Positions 16,446 through 25,455 of a stretch of DNA of 64,000 nucleotides are shown one piece after another. Origin of the DNA: Brevibacillus choshinensis (GTDB lineage: Bacteria > Bacillota > Bacilli > Brevibacillales > Brevibacillaceae); NCBI RefSeq assembly GCF_016811915.1, contig NZ_CP069127.1, positions 960,001 to 1,024,000 of the forward strand. The letters run 5' to 3'. The notes under the pieces were generated by a model. It made no database searches, was not told where the DNA came from, and saw only the letters and a list, made by a program, of their open reading frames with translations. Both the position numbers and the translations under genes were made by a program. Position 1 is the stretch's first letter; each line of letters starts with the position of its first letter.

Positions 16446-18008
16446 CTAAATCGGGAACCTCGGGATGACCTCAATTTCAAACTGATCTTTTTTCGTCCAT
16501 TCTTTCTTTCGGATGAACATCACCTTCTCAATAATCGACTTGAGAAGGTGATTTTTTTGTTCCAAATCATCCATATTATAATAGTTCTCCAAAACAGCAC
16601 GGACTTTTGGAACGATCGTTTGTTGGTGCTTTCTTCTGTGCAGCTCTTCGTCGATCTCTTTTTGAAGACGAGAGGTGGAGGCTTCAGCTTCCTTGATCTT
16701 ATCCGAGATACTTTTATGTCGCTGGAGAAACACTTCCTCACTGTATACCTTTTTCTCCAGCATCTCGAATGCTGTTTCCCTCATAGAATTCAGCTCGGAA
16801 AGCTCTTTGTTGAGATGAGCAATCTGTTTCTGCCTGATGACGACTATATCTTCTTGCTCAGATGTCAACGACGCGGCTACCTCTTGTTCAGACAGGGGAG
16901 ATTTCCAAGCAAGTATCTCGAGGGCCTGTAGAATACGATGTTCTACTAGGGGCAATAATACACCTTTCTGAACTCCTTGGCACCTGGGATTAATGCAACG
17001 CAGCTGGGGGTTGGGTCTATCTGCACTCCGGGTCATATATAAGGCCCTCTCACATACTCCACACTTGATGATACCTGCTAAGGGGTTGCTCAAACCCACT
17101 CCTTCTTTGGTGGGGGCTCTCCATCTGTCACGAAGAGCTGTGTTGGCTTCATCAAATTGTTCTTGGGTAATTAGAGCTTCATGAGCATCTTCATGTCTGA
17201 TCCACAACTCAGGAGGAACCTTTTTCTTTACCCGTTTACCATTCCGTTTCATGTGTTTCTCTTTGCCCCAAATGATATGGCCTAAATAAACCTCGTTTTT
17301 GATAATGTGCGATATGGTAGATTGCTCCCACAAGTCGCCCTCTGGTGGTTTTATGCCTAGGGAGTCCAAGTGTTTTACAACAGCTTGGCGTCCATGACCA
17401 CCTGCAATCATTTCAAATATCTTTTGAATAATAGGGGCTTCATCCGGATGCAGAATTAGCTTGAGGTTTTCATCGCGGGAATACCCATAGGGAGGCTTTC
17501 GAGTAATGGATTTCCCATCCTTGGCAGAACGTCTTCTCCCACCCTGTAGGCGTTTATTGATCTGTTTCAATTCTTCACGAGCGATGATTGATTTGACCCC
17601 AAAGAGCAGTTCGGCTCCTTCTGCGTTACAGTCGATAACTTCTGATGGTGTAATAATCAGAGTTTCGGAGAACTTGAATGCTCTGAAAATAGTCCCAGCA
17701 TCGATCATATCTCCACGACCTAGTCGATCCAGGTCCATTACTACGACGCCTTCGACCATTCCTTCTTCAATCTGCCGTAGCATCTCCTGGGCTTCTGGGC
17801 GCTCCGAGAGGTACTCTCCAGATACGACTTCCTCAAAGATACCAATGACATTATGTCCCTCACGTCGGATCAGCTCCAGCAGCTCGCGACGATGCTTCGC
17901 TAATGTATCAAATGGAGAGCTGCTCTCCAGTGCTTTGCGTTCCTCTTCAACGTCTTTCCTACTCTTACGTAAGTATATGAATACGTCCAAGTGCGTAGGG
18001 CGGCTCAT
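16446..18008 (-). CDS. int: Large serine recombinase (prophage integrase)
   Basis: Site-specific recombinase of 520 residues. The catalytic domain starts IYLRKSRKD with nucleophile Ser16, followed by GVVVMDLDRLGRGDM. A recombinase domain with PPYGYSRD comes next, then a zinc ribbon (CGVCERALY, later CINPRCQG), then a long coiled coil near residues 380-460. This is the large serine recombinase layout used by phages that insert into genes. AGGTGATTCC precedes the ATG. Its 3' end faces attL, with the TIR-like module between. Excision would need a directionality factor, not identified here. Confidence 0.95.
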   Translation of the reverse strand: MSRPTHLDVFIYLRKSRKDVEEERKALESSSPFDTLAKHRRELLELIRREGHNVIGIFEEVVSGEYLSERPEAQEMLRQIEEGMVEGVVVMDLDRLGRGDMIDAGTIFRAFKFSETLIITPSEVIDCNAEGAELLFGVKSIIAREELKQINKRLQGGRRRSAKDGKSITRKPPYGYSRDENLKLILHPDEAPIIQKIFEMIAGGHGRQAVVKHLDSLGIKPPEGDLWEQSTISHIIKNEVYLGHIIWGKEKHMKRNGKRVKKKVPPELWIRHEDAHEALITQEQFDEANTALRDRWRAPTKEGVGLSNPLAGIIKCGVCERALYMTRSADRPNPQLRCINPRCQGVQKGVLLPLVEHRILQALEILAWKSPLSEQEVAASLTSEQEDIVVIRQKQIAHLNKELSELNSMRETAFEMLEKKVYSEEVFLQRHKSISDKIKEAEASTSRLQKEIDEELHRRKHQQTIVPKVRAVLENYYNMDDLEQKNHLLKSIIEKVMFIRKKEWTKKDQFEIEVIPRFPI

Positions 18009-19680: not shown

Positions 19681-19730
19681 GTGAAATTATTTCACAATGA
19701 CATTTAAATATCAATAAGGCTAAATTGCAA
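19681..19730 (-). promoter_or_regulatory. Repressor promoter with palindromic operator
   Basis: On the minus strand TTGCAA (19725-19730), a 17-base spacer and TTAAAT (19702-19707) form a promoter. A perfect palindrome GTGAAAT-T-ATTTCAC (19681-19695) lies at its start site, suggesting autorepression. Confidence 0.65.
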
Positions 19731-19748
19731 AATTTACATCAATAATAG

Positions 19749-19785
19749 TTGACTACCTAAAGTCTATGTGATAATTTTAGATCAC
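19749..19785 (+). promoter_or_regulatory. Early rightward promoter with operator
   Basis: TTGACT (19749-19754), a 17-base spacer and TAATTT (19772-19777). The inverted repeat GTGAT...ATCAC (19768-19785) covers the -10. It shares the GTGA/TCAC ends of the leftward operator, so the same repressor probably binds both. Confidence 0.7.
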
Positions 19786-19832
19786 AAAACAATAACATAA
19801 ATTGATCAACTAGAAAGGCGGTGAGTCCTTGT

Positions 19833-20123
19833 ATGGGTAAGCGTTACTCTGAATTGCTTTCACTTGCGGTTTCTGAGAGTGGTCTGAAACTTAATAAGAT
19901 CGCTGAAATGATAGGTGAAATTACAGGAAAAAGTCCAACTAATGAATATCTAAGCAGGCTTCAAAACGGAAAAACTGCGCCTGCTGGAGACAAATTGAAT
20001 GAAGCAATATCAAAAGTTCTTGGAATTGATCCTATTGAGTTAAAAGCGGCTGCTTATCGTGAAAAAATTCCTGCCGAGGTACTTGCGAAGCTACAATCAC
20101 ACCCAAAAGCCAGTAGCGCGTGA
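19833..20123 (+). CDS. Cro-like/Xre helix-turn-helix protein
   Basis: A 96-residue protein with an N-terminal helix-turn-helix (LKLNKIAEMIGEITGKSPTN, then EYLSRLQNGKTAPAGDKLNE). The LSRLQNGK core is shared with the divergent repressor, so the two descend from a common ancestor. It is the first early gene, the usual place for a Cro-like antagonist. AAAGGCGGTGA precedes the ATG at 19833 at slightly long spacing; a GTG at 19821 is possible. Confidence 0.8.
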   Translation: MGKRYSELLSLAVSESGLKLNKIAEMIGEITGKSPTNEYLSRLQNGKTAPAGDKLNEAISKVLGIDPIELKAAAYREKIPAEVLAKLQSHPKASSA

Positions 20124-20139
20124 AAGGAGCTGATCCAAA

Positions 20140-20427
20140 ATGAACAAGGTTGTCCCACTTCACCAACCGCATACCCATAGAACAAGGGGTGATGTGGGTA
20201 TGGAACACGATCGAGATCCTTTGAAACGCCCAACATTTGAAACGCAAGTTGGAAACACAACTATCAAGATTCGCTCGGCACTTCCGTTTATGACACCTGA
20301 CGAGCAGGAGCGCTGGTGGATTGAAAACGACTCCTTGCCGGAGGTTCAGAGATTTAAGAAAGCTCGGATCGCCGCACTGATCAACGTGGCAAAAGCTGAA
20401 GCATCGCGAGAAAACGATTCTGCGTAG
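20140..20427 (+). CDS. Early phage protein of unknown function
   Basis: 95 residues, unrecognised. N-terminal part rich in His/Arg, then GNTTIKIRSALPFMTPDEQE and a helical C-terminus. AAAGGAGC is well placed before the ATG. It lies directly after the Cro-like gene. Confidence 0.7.
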   Translation: MNKVVPLHQPHTHRTRGDVGMEHDRDPLKRPTFETQVGNTTIKIRSALPFMTPDEQERWWIENDSLPEVQRFKKARIAALINVAKAEASRENDSA

Positions 20428-20443
20428 CACCGGGGAACCGGTG
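20428..20443 (+). other. Intercistronic stem-loop
   Basis: CACCGG-GGAA-CCGGTG: a perfect 6-bp stem with a GGAA tetraloop right at the previous stop codon. No T-run follows, so it is more likely an mRNA stability or folding element than a terminator. Confidence 0.4.
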
Positions 20444-20475
20444 TCACACTGGACAAGCACTTGAGGAGGATACCA

Positions 20476-20616
20476 ATGAACTACTCGGACATCAAAGGGT
20501 TACTTGAAACAAACGATGCCAAAGAAGCTAATCAGCTACTTCAAGATGGGTGGTCGCTTTTCGACATCGAGAAGAGCGCCAACGGTCGCTATAAGTTCCT
20601 GCTTGTAAAGCAGTAA
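20476..20616 (+). CDS. Small early phage protein (46 aa)
   Basis: A 46-residue protein, MNYSDIKGLLETNDAKEANQ onward, ending YKFLLVKQ. The pattern of a small alpha-beta domain (LLQDGWSLFDIEKSANGRY) resembles short DUF1737-like phage proteins, an uncertain match. GAGGAGGATACC sits just before the ATG, strong support for translation. Confidence 0.65.
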   Translation: MNYSDIKGLLETNDAKEANQLLQDGWSLFDIEKSANGRYKFLLVKQ

Positions 20617-20623
20617 GAAGGAG

Positions 20624-20830
20624 ATGACTACCCTGGATAAACTCGATCAATTAGTAAAACGAATTGGTTGGTATGCCAAGAAAGTCAACCAATCAGCAAA
20701 ATGGTCTCGTGATAAACGAGCTCGGCGTCAACCCATCCTGTTGGCATATAAAGTTCGGCTGCACGAACTGATTAATAAAGAAAAAATGCCCTCGGCTCAT
20801 ACCGTGGCCGAGGGAGAGTCTGGAAGATGA
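20624..20830 (+). CDS. Small basic early phage protein
   Basis: 68 residues, basic in its first 45 (KRIGWYAKKVNQSAKWSRDK). Start uncertain: the ATG at 20624 touches its AAGGAG, which is too close. The sequence AAGGAGATGA would be ideally placed for an unusual CTG start at 20633. The C-terminal codons overlap a hairpin working on the other strand. Confidence 0.55.
   Translation: MTTLDKLDQLVKRIGWYAKKVNQSAKWSRDKRARRQPILLAYKVRLHELINKEKMPSAHTVAEGESGR
20781..20814 (-). terminator. Minus-direction terminator inside early operon
   Basis: CCCTCGGC (20789-20796) and GCCGAGGG (20807-20814) form an 8-bp stem. On the minus strand it is followed by CATTTTTTC. It would stop antisense, leftward transcripts. 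Confidence 0.65.
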
Positions 20831-20887
20831 GCACATTTATATTGTAATACGGCAACCAAATACTCCCAGTAAAGGAGAGACGAACGC

Positions 20888-21442
20888 ATGAGCCCTAATC
20901 AGTACGGTCAACAATTGGGCCAGGCGCTTATGGAAGCAGGCATAACACAACTGAGTTTCAGCTTCGATGCACATGTAAGTCCTGAGTCTGTTAGTGCATA
21001 TAAAAACGGAAGGGCAGTAGCTCCACCCGATGTTAAATCCAAATCAATTTTAATTACTGACAACCCATTCTTGGCGATGGCAGCTGCAGATGAATCAACA
21101 GCAGGAACTAGCCCAGGGATTATGGATGGGGACAGGATCGAAGTAAACCGCCATACGGTGTTAGATCGAACAGAACACGAAATGCTTGAACTCCTGAAGG
21201 TAATCCAAAGAGCTGAGGAAAGAATAATCTCCGCGCCACCACGATCATTAACGCCACAAGAAAGACAAGAGATTGAGACGTTGATTCAGGAAACATTGGA
21301 TGTCGTTACAGCCAGCACTAATCTTGCAGCCATACTTTGCCGCGAGTACAAGGTGTCTTGGATTAAGCAGTGGGCCATACACAAGTCCAAGTGGATGAGA
21401 AACGGCCTAATGAAAATGATGAAAGAGGTGTCTGGGAAATGA
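20888..21442 (+). CDS. Phage protein with N-terminal HTH-like region
   Basis: 184 residues. The first 50 look like an Xre-type region (QLSFSFDAHVSPESVSAYKN then GRAVAPPDV). Later parts are helical with no recognised domain, and the C-terminus is basic. AAAGGAGAG precedes the ATG at good spacing. It overlaps the next gene by four bases (ATGA). Confidence 0.65.
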   Translation: MSPNQYGQQLGQALMEAGITQLSFSFDAHVSPESVSAYKNGRAVAPPDVKSKSILITDNPFLAMAAADESTAGTSPGIMDGDRIEVNRHTVLDRTEHEMLELLKVIQRAEERIISAPPRSLTPQERQEIETLIQETLDVVTASTNLAAILCREYKVSWIKQWAIHKSKWMRNGLMKMMKEVSGK

Positions 21443-21816
21443 CTGCATACCAGGGGCCAGAAACTTTGGAAATACTCTCGGATGCTGATAGGGACACGAT
21501 CCATACTGCCCTGGTTGAGGCAGCCAGGAGGGATGCTCTTACACCAATCGATTTATTGAAGGATAAACGGTGGATACTCGCTGCGAAGGTTAAACGCCAA
21601 CAGCCAGTAGATGAAGAGGAATTAGGATGGGTGATCAAGTCATTGCGTGAGAGAGCTGACAGGTCAGAGCGCAGAGGAATGGCACTGAATCCTATATATG
21701 ACAGGGCAATTGCTGACAAGGTAGCAGAAATCAAACAAGCCCGCGAGTACGTAATGATCAACAGTATTTCATCTCGTTACAAAGAAAAAACCGCCTGCAG
21801 CGAACAGACGGCTTAG
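21439..21816 (+). CDS. Early phage protein of unknown function
   Basis: 125 residues, soluble, helical, rich in charged residues (AALVEAARRD-type helix, SLRERADRSERRG). The ATG at 21439 overlaps the upstream stop; the longer in-frame start at 21370 would sit inside the previous gene. The last codons form a hairpin on the opposite strand. Confidence 0.6.
   Translation: MTAYQGPETLEILSDADRDTIHTALVEAARRDALTPIDLLKDKRWILAAKVKRQQPVDEEELGWVIKSLRERADRSERRGMALNPIYDRAIADKVAEIKQAREYVMINSISSRYKEKTACSEQTA
21785..21813 (-). terminator. Minus-direction terminator
   Basis: On the minus strand CCGTCTG pairs with CAGGCGG using one G-U pair, followed by TTTTTTC. On the plus strand the same position is a C-A mismatch, so the hairpin is built for minus-strand RNA. 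Confidence 0.65.
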
Positions 21817-21866
21817 AAAATATCTCAACGGAAGAATACCACAACTAAATACGGGAGGGCAAGAGA

Positions 21867-22115
21867 ATGGCAAAACCTGATGTAATCAGCGATGAATTCA
21901 TTGGCGGTCGGTTCGATCGTTTTGCAACATTTCTTTCTGATGGAACATTGAGAATCACGGAGGTAAAGGATCCAAAACCTGAACAGCAATGGGAGCTTAC
22001 CCAAATCACCTTGCAAAACTGGGATGAAATCATGAGGCTTCGCGATTTTCTAAACAAATTGTCACCAGTCCAGCCGGGGAAGGAGAGCATTCAACATGAA
22101 CGTGCAAGCGCATGA
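21867..22115 (+). CDS. Early phage protein of unknown function
   Basis: 82 residues, unrecognised. FATFLSDGTLRITEVKD suggests a small beta fold; the C-terminus is LRDFLNKLSPV. GGGAGGGCAAG precedes the ATG. It overlaps the next gene by 20 bases. Confidence 0.6.
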   Translation: MAKPDVISDEFIGGRFDRFATFLSDGTLRITEVKDPKPEQQWELTQITLQNWDEIMRLRDFLNKLSPVQPGKESIQHERASA

Positions 22116-22440
22116 ATGGTCGGATGCCTTTCTAAACGATCGGGCGCGAGAGCTTGCCGAGCGGATTGTAAGGGAGTACGAGGAAGACCCATATGGTTAT
22201 GTGGAGGATGGCTTCATTGATCTTCGTGAAGAAATAACTTTTGAACGTTTGACCGAAGAACTCGCAGAAAAGTTTGAAATAGAAGATGATCAGGCACTCA
22301 AAGAAGAGCTATGGAAACGAATTGATCACGAGATTTTTGAAGAAGCAAAGGAAACGATTCAGGAGACCATTCAAGATCACGCGGCTTTTCAACGGAACGT
22401 ACTTGGATACCACGGATTCTCACAACGGGATTTTTATTGA
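22096..22440 (+). CDS. Acidic early phage protein
   Basis: 114 residues, strongly acidic and helical (EEDPYGYVEDGFIDLREEI, then EELAEKFEIEDDQALKEEL). No known domain recognised. AAGGAGAG stands about 8 bases before the ATG. Its TGA stop (22438-22440) is part of the first strand of the hammerhead ribozyme that follows, so self-cleavage would leave this mRNA only 28 bases after the stop. Confidence 0.65.
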   Translation: MNVQAHEWSDAFLNDRARELAERIVREYEEDPYGYVEDGFIDLREEITFERLTEELAEKFEIEDDQALKEELWKRIDHEIFEEAKETIQETIQDHAAFQRNVLGYHGFSQRDFY

Positions 22441-22507
22441 GTCGAAACTGGGGCACAATGCCTCAGTCTGCCGGATCTGACCGCCCGGCACTGATGAGAC
22501 AGGTCAA
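22437..22507 (+). ncRNA. Type II hammerhead ribozyme
   Basis: All core elements of a hammerhead, with helix II open-ended. GAA core at 22444-22446. Helix III is 22447-22455 with 22459-22467 (9 bp, one G-U, CAA loop) and begins with the required A-U pair. The cleavage triplet GTC is 22466-22468, with the cut after C22468. Helix I is TGCCGG (22469-22474) with CCGGCA (22485-22490). The invariant CTGATGA is 22491-22497. Helix II pairs 22441-22443 with 22498-22500, then TTGA with TCAA (22504-22507) across an AGG bulge that may contact the helix I loop. Self-cleavage is predicted, not shown. Confidence 0.88.
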
Positions 22508-22605
22508 ATATGCGGGGTCACAACGGGCGTAGGCAAGGAACTGCAACGGCTGCCGTAGAGGTTGGGACGGCGGCGACCTCGCGACTAAGAAAGGGGGGAA
22601 CGGAT
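22508..22605 (+). other. GC-rich structured leader after the ribozyme
   Basis: About 98 bases without a credible gene. Possible stems are ACGG-CTG-CCGT and GAGGT...ACCTC. It is the 5' part of the RNA released by the ribozyme and leads to the small CxxC gene. No known RNA class recognised. Confidence 0.35.
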
Positions 22606-22737
22606 ATGGCAGAGGTAAAACACGGCGGCTGCGGCGCCTGCCAAAGCAAAGAGCAAGAGATACTTACCAGCGTTGTCAATCGACCAGGGCAAATGTCTGG
22701 AATTGCTCTTTGCGACAAATGCTTACCAAAAAAGTAA
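22606..22737 (+). CDS. Small CxxC zinc-finger-like protein (43 aa)
   Basis: A 43-residue protein with two cysteine pairs, CGAC near the N-terminus and CDKC near the C-terminus (GIALCDKCLPKK), probably binding one zinc. AAGGGGGGAA precedes the ATG at 22606. Longer in-frame starts would run into the structured RNA and are rejected. Such mini zinc proteins in phage early regions have no assigned role. Confidence 0.65.
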   Translation: MAEVKHGGCGACQSKEQEILTSVVNRPGQMSGIALCDKCLPKK

Positions 22738-22777
22738 AAGACCCAGCGCGGCAACGCTGAGCCTTCGGTCTTGATGC
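22726..22777 (-). terminator. Minus-direction terminator
   Basis: On the minus strand AAGACC pairs with GGTCTT, enclosing a second stem CAGCG...CGCTG. It is followed by TTACTTTTTT, which is complementary to the CxxC gene's 3' end. Confidence 0.55.
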
Positions 22778-22840
22778 ACGATTGGGAATCAAATTAATCG
22801 TAGCGGATAGACCCCCAAAAAACAAGTGGGAGGTATTTGC

Positions 22841-24361
22841 TTGAAAGTAACGATCGAAAGACTGGTCATTAACGAATTCAAAGGCCACCGTCGTTTAGAA
22901 ATCACTGGCAGCAACCTGGTCAAAATCGACGGTGACAACGGGAAAGGAAAGTCAACGATCGCGGATTCGATTTCCTGGCTGTTTTACGGAACGGACGCGA
23001 TGGGCAAGACGCTTGACCCTCTGCCCACCACATACTTGGGAGCTGAAACGTACATAGAGGCTCTTATCCACCTCGATCAAAAGCCAGTTTTGTTCCGGAG
23101 AACTTTGTCTGGGGGCAAAACATCCTATCACCTGAACGAAGATCCTATCAAGGCGAAACAGTTCGATGAACACGTAAAAAACATCGTACCAAGAGAACTA
23201 TTCCTGTCTCAATTCAACCCAATGTTCTTTACAGCGCAACATTGGCAAGAACAGCGAAAGCAACTTACTCAATATGTTCAAGAGCCAACAAACGGCGAAG
23301 TACTGGACAAGCTGTCTTCTGTAGAAAAAGAGATGCTTGAGGCGGAACTGAAGCAACGAGAACTGGACAAGATTGAGGAGAAAGCCCGCGAGACGGTTAA
23401 GAAATCCGAGGCAGAAGGTACGGCCTTACGCTCACGCATCCGTACCCTGCAGGAGCAAGGGGAAGCCGATAAGGCGACGATTGAATCCTGCCCCATCGCT
23501 TTCAATCAGATCGACGATCGGATAGCTGAGATCCGGGAGGAACTCACCCAGATGACATCATCGGGCATCAAAGAGCGGAGGGCAGCCCTTAAACGGGAGA
23601 TTGAAAGAAGGATGAACGACGGTCGCCGCCTCAAAAGCGAGGCTGACCATTTGGCTGTGCAGCCTGCTCCCGATACATGCCCAACCTGCAAACAAGGTCT
23701 CCCACACTCTCATATTGAGAACGTGATGACAGCTCAACAGATAAAGATTAATGAGAAGAAATCTGCGATGCAGAACTTGAAAATGGAAATTCAAAAGTTG
23801 AATGCCGAGCTGGATTTGTTACTCGAAGGCGAAGCAGTTTTTGATCCCAAGCCACTACTGGATGAAATGGCGATGCTCGAGAGAGTAAAGGCTGCTGCCT
23901 CTAGGATTGCTGAAATGAATGAGAAGGTGAGTGCAGCAGAGGCTGACCTTACACAGCAAACAAAAGCATTTGGACGAGCTAATTACATGATCAGCTGCGT
24001 AAAGAACTTCCGTGCGAAGCGTGCGGAGCTCATGGTGGAGAAAATCAGCGCCTTGTTCACAACCGTAACTGTACGCCTGTTTGATTATGTGGCCTCAAAG
24101 GATAATTACAACCCTGCTTTTGAAATTGAGCGAAACGGTGTCCCATTCAGACTGCTTTCTCTTTCTGAAAAGATGAAAGCCGGTCTGGAGGTTGCAACAG
24201 CACTTATGAAGTTGTCTGGCAGCCACTATCCGGTGTTCATCGATAACGCAGAGAGCATCGTAGAGCTCCCGCAGGTTCCGTCACAGGTATTCATTTCTCG
24301 CGTTGTCCCTGGTCCTTTAAAAATTGAATCTGATGGTAAACAGGAGGCGAAGGCTTCATGA
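22841..24361 (+). CDS. SMC/Rad50-like AAA ATPase
   Basis: A 506-residue ATPase with Walker A GDNGKGKST (31-39), long coiled coils and a central CPTC (near 280) like the Rad50 zinc hook. A C-terminal ATPase half carries LSLSEKMKAGLEVATALMKL and PVFIDNAESI (Walker B-like). It is a compact SbcC/Rad50 relative found beside RecT in phages; it probably processes or loads on DNA ends for recombination. The TTG start has GGGAGGT 6 bases upstream. It overlaps recT by four bases. Confidence 0.82.
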   Translation: MKVTIERLVINEFKGHRRLEITGSNLVKIDGDNGKGKSTIADSISWLFYGTDAMGKTLDPLPTTYLGAETYIEALIHLDQKPVLFRRTLSGGKTSYHLNEDPIKAKQFDEHVKNIVPRELFLSQFNPMFFTAQHWQEQRKQLTQYVQEPTNGEVLDKLSSVEKEMLEAELKQRELDKIEEKARETVKKSEAEGTALRSRIRTLQEQGEADKATIESCPIAFNQIDDRIAEIREELTQMTSSGIKERRAALKREIERRMNDGRRLKSEADHLAVQPAPDTCPTCKQGLPHSHIENVMTAQQIKINEKKSAMQNLKMEIQKLNAELDLLLEGEAVFDPKPLLDEMAMLERVKAAASRIAEMNEKVSAAEADLTQQTKAFGRANYMISCVKNFRAKRAELMVEKISALFTTVTVRLFDYVASKDNYNPAFEIERNGVPFRLLSLSEKMKAGLEVATALMKLSGSHYPVFIDNAESIVELPQVPSQVFISRVVPGPLKIESDGKQEAKAS

Positions 24362-25275
24362 CCCAAAACGCAATCGCGCAGGTGGCCACAAATAATGTGG
24401 TCCCTGCCTTCACCAAAGAAGAGCGCGATACACTAGTCAATACCATTGCGCGTGGTGCGACACCGCACGAGTTGTCCCTATTCATCAACATGTGCCAGTC
24501 GGCGCAGCTGAATCCGTTTTTGAATCAGATTTACTTCATCAAGTATGGAGACAAGGCAAACATCCAGATCAGTGTGGAGGGCATCCAAGCGATCGCAAGG
24601 CGCCGTGAGGATTTTGCTGGCTTCACAGCCGAGGTCGTGAAAGAGAATGACCATTTCCAAGCTGATGTGATTAAGGCCGAGGTTGAACATAAGGTCAATG
24701 GATTTACCCGCGGGAAGACAGTTGGTGCATACTGCATTGCCCACCGCAAAAATTTCCCTTCTGTGCTAGTTCTGGTAGGCAAAGAAGAAACGAAGGCGAT
24801 GGAGACCGGTAACAACAAGCACATGTGGGCCAACTACTACGATGACATGATCCGCAAGCACGCGATTAAACGGGCGCTAAAACTTCAGTTTGGCATAGAG
24901 ATCGGTGAGGACGAACAACCAAGCGAGCCTACTACAAGCATCCCTACCTATAAGCCCGATCAATCCAAGCCAGTGATTGATGTCGAGATGGCAACACCGA
25001 GAACTATCGAGGTTGATGAAGGCAAACATATCGACCCAGAGGTTGAGATGAAAAACGCGTGGGAAGAAGTTCGACGATTGAGTGAAGCAAATGGTTTCTC
25101 CGAAGATGACCTGAAAGCCTACATCAAAGAAAAGACCGGGAAAACAGCTCGTCAGTTGAAGCTTCCCGAGGTCATTGGCCTTCGCAAAGTCATGGAGCTA
25201 GAGTCTCAAGATCGACAAGAGCCAATTGTGGGACAAGTATCAGTAGGTGAATTCGATTTGTTCGACCAGCCGTAG
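24358..25275 (+). CDS. recT: RecT-family single-strand annealing protein
   Basis: A 305-residue protein; residues 1-190 match the phage RecT/Bet annealing family: INMCQSAQLNPFLNQIYFIK, ISVEGIQAIARRREDFAG, VGAYCIAHRK and NYYDDMIRKHAIKRALKLQF. The C-terminal third is variable and ends in a small helical domain (AYIKEKTGKTARQLKLPEVI). It anneals complementary strands during phage recombination. Overlaps the ATPase gene (ATGA), so they are coupled. Confidence 0.9.
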   Translation: MTQNAIAQVATNNVVPAFTKEERDTLVNTIARGATPHELSLFINMCQSAQLNPFLNQIYFIKYGDKANIQISVEGIQAIARRREDFAGFTAEVVKENDHFQADVIKAEVEHKVNGFTRGKTVGAYCIAHRKNFPSVLVLVGKEETKAMETGNNKHMWANYYDDMIRKHAIKRALKLQFGIEIGEDEQPSEPTTSIPTYKPDQSKPVIDVEMATPRTIEVDEGKHIDPEVEMKNAWEEVRRLSEANGFSEDDLKAYIKEKTGKTARQLKLPEVIGLRKVMELESQDRQEPIVGQVSVGEFDLFDQP

Positions 25276-25290
25276 GGAGAGTGAAAGCGG

Positions 25291-25455
25291 ATGAAGACAA
25301 GGGGATTGCAGCTGAAAGAAAAGCTCTTCCTGAAGAAGCTACTGCCCAAGATCCAGCCCGACAATTGGTTGATCCGAAAGAAGCTGCCTACAGAATGGCA
25401 TCTCGAACATAAAGTCACTGGAACGAAAAAGGTCGTGCCTCTCCGGTCGGGATAG
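25291..25455 (+). CDS. Small basic phage protein (54 aa)
   Basis: A 54-residue, very basic protein (LQLKEKLFLKKLLPKIQP, then RKKLPTEWHLEHKVTGTKK). GGGAGAGTGAAAG precedes the ATG, and the next gene follows closely. Unrecognised. Confidence 0.55.
   Translation: MKTRGLQLKEKLFLKKLLPKIQPDNWLIRKKLPTEWHLEHKVTGTKKVVPLRSG

Follow-up and report, generated by a model that had tools for sequence, protein, structure and literature searches.

Between two early genes of a Brevibacillus choshinensis prophage lies a pair of structured RNAs. The first, at 22441–22506 on the + strand, is by its sequence an intact type II hammerhead ribozyme that is predicted to cleave itself, and the second, which directly follows it at 22510–22584 and is here termed X, belongs to an RNA family absent from Rfam. 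Comparing the window (the whole analysed stretch of 64,000 nucleotides) with related loci, we observe that both structures covary, that the coupling between them is fixed, and that related prophages can carry a different element in place of the hammerhead. We think it probable that the two RNAs form one module, in which the hammerhead comes first and would cut an early mRNA just past a stop codon, so that X would lead the downstream mRNA.

A prophage early operon carries the two RNAs

The hammerhead and X belong to the early operon of a prophage. Reading along the + strand, one meets a regulator, then small unknown genes, the gene of a 114-aa acidic protein, the two RNAs and the gene of a 43-aa CxxC protein. 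Genes for an SbcC-like ATPase, RecT, a DnaD-like loader and a DnaB-like helicase lie downstream of the CxxC gene on the same strand. The elements that frame the module are:

16446–18008, opposite (−) strand: serine recombinase (Pfam/PHROG annotation)
20888–21442, + strand: regulator (PHROG transcriptional regulator)
22096–22440, + strand: upstream early gene, 114-aa acidic protein, whose TGA (22438–22440) directly abuts stem II of the hammerhead (ORF list)
22592–22598, + strand: Shine-Dalgarno-like AGGGGGG ahead of the downstream gene (sequence)
22606–22737, + strand: downstream early gene, 43-aa CxxC protein (sequence, ORF list)

The acidic protein has neither a Pfam nor a PHROG match and no tblastn relative in annotated phages. 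Relatives of its gene precede the hammerhead in three of the collected loci (L047, L071 and L112), and a relative of the CxxC gene follows the same hammerhead-X module in the viral contig L064. When the locus was compared with annotated phages by BLAST, no record with the genes was recovered, and only phage Emery matched the RNA at a significant score. With a promoter between the two genes in mind, the + strand was scanned over 19700–25300 and showed no promoter-like site, in a scan whose matches are no more frequent than in shuffled sequence.

The hammerhead has a complete type II core

The preliminary description of this DNA, made from the letters and their open reading frames, had recognized a type II hammerhead within a prophage early operon, had placed its core elements and a cut after position 22468, and had suggested a search with Rfam covariance models. 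All of this is borne out. Rfam Hammerhead_II (RF02276) aligns end to end with 22440–22508 of the + strand at 40.5 bits, which exceeds the gathering cut-off of 37 bits only modestly (E = 8.2e-5 for the whole 64-kb window against 4,227 Rfam families), and the neighbouring genes are those of a phage. The following elements, all on the + strand, can be assigned:

22441–22506: type II hammerhead ribozyme (RF02276 match and sequence)
22441–22443/22498–22500: stem II, 3 bp (sequence)
22444–22447: GAAA box (sequence)
22447–22455/22459–22467: helix III, 9 bp including one G·U (sequence)
after C22468, 5' of helix I: predicted cut (core register)
22469–22474/22485–22490: helix I, 6 bp (sequence)
22478–22482: loop I side of the pseudoknot, UGACC (covariation; fits the type II consensus of PMC3088659)
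22491–22497: CUGAUGA box, CTGATGA in the DNA (sequence)
22502–22506: 3' tail side of the pseudoknot, GGUCA (covariation)

Both the sequence and the RF02276 alignment show the CUGANGA box, the GAAA box and the UH cleavage site in register, and the site of the predicted cut agrees with this register. Stems I and III are closed by loops and stem II is open, as expected for type II. Besides rRNA and tRNAs, the Rfam scan found no other ribozyme or RNA family in the window; the hammerhead is its sole ribozyme match. A structural motif search demanding the core, 5-bp stems and a 2-bp stem II matched the window once, whereas 60 sequences of 64 kb obtained by Markov shuffling gave no match at all. The minimum free energy fold of 22437–22507 contains helices III and I, with a small competing hairpin in place of stem II (z −1.27; pseudoknots are outside this folding model).

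The 3' tail pairs with loop I

In type II hammerheads, loop I pairs with the tail that immediately follows a short stem II, and mutants have shown that this pseudoknot is required for fast cleavage (PMC3088659). The copy in the window has the same potential (UGACC/GGUCA), and the pairing covaries over the 131 distinct hammerheads from our collected loci. At least four Watson-Crick pairs between loop I and tail are found in 120 of these, compared to 48 expected from shuffling and a maximum of 61 in 500 shuffles. The signal persists among the 61 tails without GGTC, where 51 have at least four such pairs (12 expected).

The preliminary description had drawn the ends of the ribozyme differently, as an open helix II with an AGG bulge whose first strand overlaps the upstream TGA. 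Such a long helix would make the translation stop codon a part of the ribozyme, and in the window copy TTGA (22437–22440) is indeed able to pair with TCAA (22504–22507). However, covariation lends the extension no support: of the four extra base pairs past the bulge, on average 1.47 can form per copy against 1.32 in shuffled sequences (1 of 500 shuffles equally high), the full set occurs in just one of the 131 hammerheads, and the same bases are used by the strongly covarying pseudoknot. We therefore consider the long helix II very improbable. Since the tail pairs with loop I and not with an extended helix II, the TGA lies outside the ribozyme and merely adjoins stem II.

A second structured RNA follows the hammerhead

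When relatives are aligned, conservation continues past the ribozyme into X. This adjacent structured RNA lies just beyond the limits given in the preliminary description, which had missed it. Its parts, all on the + strand, are:

22510–22584: structured RNA X, directly 3' of the hammerhead (model R1, covariation)
22512–22517/22577–22582: helix P1 (covariation)
22529–22532/22541–22544: helix P2 (covariation)
22549–22556/22567–22574: helix P3 (covariation)
22557–22566: conserved P3 loop AGAGGUUGGG (alignment)

On the evidence of covariation, X is a three-way junction. Across 20 base pairs in 19 sequences, 99.2% of the cells are standard-paired, and 26 cells carry double changes compared to 7 after shuffling, a value that none of 500 shuffles reaches. 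Shifting the pair partners abolishes the signal. The same three helices are recovered by RNAalifold, and they are retained in the predicted fold of the downstream cleavage product. Our covariance model of X, termed R1, was seeded with 19 sequences taken only from phages, prophages and plasmids, and the window X, itself one of the seed sequences, scores 88.5 bits. No Rfam family matches X in the window or in nine relatives. R1 has matches in 24 of 39 Brevibacillales genomes, among them a few whose sole match is the weaker chromosomal motif described below. In many loci with unrelated downstream genes, the P3 loop of X is found about 49–52 nt ahead of the start codon.

A longer ORF that starts at 22510 spans X without a Shine-Dalgarno sequence of its own. 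We rejected a coding explanation of X for three reasons: indels in relatives break the frame, compensatory changes track the helices, and the Shine-Dalgarno-like sequence points to the start at 22606.

X resembles the opposite strand of the chromosomal BsrC motif

In addition to the phage-type copies, R1 detects weaker matches of 31–46 bits in many Bacilli, mostly one per genome. Most of the 20 R1 loci that were checked, some phage copies among them, overlap matches to RF01410 (BsrC), and wherever both models match they do so on opposite strands. The genome of the window itself has one such chromosomal copy (C1:3075657–3075744), which scores 27.9 bits with R1. P3 of the chromosomal loci contains 18 G·U and no A·C on the R1 strand, which suggests that the structured RNA is encoded on the R1 strand, the comparison being somewhat biased because the loci were picked by R1. 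In L315–L319, L326–L337 and the own-genome copy, RF01410 appears to be modelled opposite to the covarying structure. A strand error of RF01410 in Rfam is likely.

BsrC loci and X have P2, P3 and the conserved loops GGA[AG] and AGAGGUWGGG in common. X differs in having the closing helix P1, in its location in phage early operons and in being joined to a ribozyme. X resembles the strand complementary to RF01410, a likeness that could stem from common ancestry or from convergence, and the RF01410 model misses X: at E ≤ 1 it has no match in 22300–22700 of the window. In three Brevibacillales genomes, the chromosomal motif precedes a csp gene by about 200 nt, on the same strand. BsrC is annotated as an sRNA and was reported to co-precipitate with Hfq in B. 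subtilis (PMC3574147); the literature searched yielded no function for it. Finally, the viral contig L133 has a hammerhead, then a tRNA-like stretch and then an X relative with the loop AGAGGUAGGG (45.4 bits), which thus stands midway between the form of the phages and that of the chromosomes.

The hammerhead is exchanged for a three-hairpin element

Prophage-type copies of X were counted above 50 bits in R1 across the 39 Brevibacillales genomes, and their pairing with a 5' element was judged by coordinates and sequence inspection. Thirty copies were found. A type II hammerhead immediately precedes 13 of them, and a different, three-hairpin element precedes the remaining 17. None has both and none has neither. 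The three-hairpin element consists of a GGGC-UUCG-GCCC hairpin, a variable stem and a GGAGG-UUCGAA-CCUCC hairpin. Its model, R2, has 17 matches in the 39 genomes, every one 5' of X, and across 399 Bacilli genomes it has no match outside the order three-hairpin element, then X. The three-hairpin elements mostly adjoin X directly; in G021 and G037 a tRNA-like fold separates the two, and in G019 and G020 a short hairpin does. The spacing from the CUGAUGA box of the hammerhead to P1 of X is 13–24 nt. The full module is also present, unannotated, in Brevibacillus phage Emery (KC595516), a phage that has been isolated and sequenced, and records named Brevibacillus contain the same RNA. A pattern scan of genome contigs gave mostly chance matches.

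Hammerhead and three-hairpin element both start at or near the stop codon of the upstream gene. Moreover, one upstream gene cluster is common to both kinds of module (10 with hammerhead, 4 with three-hairpin element), and so is one downstream gene cluster (5 and 6, respectively). That one element can replace the other at a single site, with the genes on either side unchanged, is the strongest hint that the two have an equal function, presumably to separate the two transcripts.

The three-hairpin element was rejected as a tRNA, since ARAGORN reports none there and no Rfam family matches, even though its third hairpin does resemble a T-arm. As to a permuted hammerhead, inspection by eye found no CUGANGA/GAAA core. 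A speculative idea, to which we give a small but real chance, is that the element represents an undescribed class of self-cleaving ribozyme, and that the phages interchange two unrelated ribozymes to create the 5' end of the X-led mRNA. In a weaker form of this proposal, a host nuclease would cut the element.

Several variants were seen in the collected loci. Two of the 13 hammerhead-X modules in Brevibacillales are insertion variants. L003 (C1:5250436–5250502 on the − strand of the window's own genome) and L306 have an insertion of about 26 nt between CUGACGA and the 3' strand of stem II, which can be folded as two hairpins, one of them covarying (AUCAG-GUAU-CUGAU; AUCGG-GAAA-CUGAU). Stem II and the pseudoknot are kept in both. 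These ribozymes may be decayed or modified and are possibly inactive, and the presence of such a variant in the same genome as the window suggests that the module tolerates possibly inactive ribozymes.

Among the three-hairpin elements, L308 and L314 have an additional tRNA-like fold before X, with the acceptor stem AGGUCGG/CCGACCU or AGGGCGG/CCGCCCU, a T-arm and an enlarged anticodon region. In the copies inspected, including L139 and L309, the UUCG loop of the first hairpin is complementary to [CU]GAA in the loop of the third, which would allow a possible kissing contact. The viral contigs L064 and L141 have a three-hairpin element elsewhere, on the 5' side of their hammerhead-X module.

Hammerheads also exist without X. 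The Mu-like prophage region of G005 has two of them about 800 nt apart around Mu-like genes (L422, C1:466500–473500), with the core variants CUGAUGAUGG and CUGAUGAUGA. Two viral contigs carry dense arrays of type II hammerheads within about 3 kb, nine in L111 (10060–13412) and seven in L084 (9832–12288). Their pseudoknots covary, and most of these hammerheads are followed by a Shine-Dalgarno-like GAGGAG.

Discussion

We propose that the transcribed hammerhead folds with its loop I-tail pseudoknot and would cut after C22468. The upstream mRNA would then end about 28 nt past its stop codon in the 9-bp helix III hairpin, with a 2',3'-cyclic phosphate. The downstream mRNA would start with a 5'-OH and the helix I/pseudoknot structure, followed by X, about 24 nt ahead of the start codon. 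We infer cleavage in the cell and a separate expression of the two genes. X may act in cis as a leader that influences the stability or the translation of the processed mRNA; a cis role is favoured over a free sRNA because the distance from X to the start codon is conserved. The preliminary description had likewise proposed that cleavage splits the early mRNA and leaves a 3' end protected by helix III, and had thought this undescribed. Processing does appear to be the most likely role, whereas its novelty does not stand, since processing of phage operons by hammerheads was already proposed in 2011 (PMC3088659).

Two other explanations of the module deserve consideration. Cleavage could produce the 5' end of a stable, trans-acting sRNA that contains X, with or without the next gene, and that acts on or mimics the related chromosomal RNA of the host. 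The resemblance of X to a motif found mostly once per genome, whose R1 matches coincide with RF01410 loci, and the co-precipitation of BsrC with Hfq speak for this. However, no terminator-like site directly follows X on the + strand, the nearest one being weak and inside the next gene, and the fixed distance from X to the start codons of many unrelated genes fits a leader better, so that we regard the sRNA as unlikely. Alternatively, the hammerhead might be a transcribed passenger of no regulatory consequence and only X be under selection, for instance in the role of a leader or in antitermination. X is indeed retained without a hammerhead in 17 of the 30 loci, and the core insertions in L003 and L306 point in the same direction. 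Yet wherever the hammerhead is absent, its place is filled by another structured element, and covariation has preserved both its core and its pseudoknot. A passenger is thus quite unlikely, and we favour a module in which the hammerhead would cut and X would lead.

The role of bacterial and phage hammerheads has been named an open question (PMC6155905). The locus described here places a hammerhead in a fixed comparative setting: its position and the flanking gene families stay the same, a definite RNA accompanies it on its 3' side, and nature provides a substitute for it. Phages that have the ribozyme can be matched with phages that lack it, which makes its function directly testable. By-products of the analysis are an RNA family new to Rfam, a candidate for a ribozyme or a processing element, and the likely strand error in RF01410.

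Type II hammerheads of prophages are already known, but the coupled, exchangeable module looks undescribed: in the open-access literature searched we came across no account of X, of a hammerhead coupled to it or of the exchangeable three-hairpin element. With the published type II hammerheads (RF02276; Perreault et al., 2011, PMC3088659) the ribozyme of the window shares the core, the open stem II, the pseudoknot and the position between prophage genes. Published prophage hammerheads of this design cleave, and those of A. tumefaciens do so also in living E. coli cells that express them (PMC3088659). To these the present locus adds a second structured RNA and, in sister phages, a replacement element. 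The hammerhead arrays of C. scindens, Azorhizobium and A. tumefaciens have likewise been proposed to cut long phage transcripts into gene-length mRNAs, in a study that proposed the processing of phage operons by multiple hammerheads and showed cleavage (PMC3088659). There, however, the hammerheads form arrays that flank genes, whereas here a single ribozyme is combined with a putative leader element at one position of the operon.
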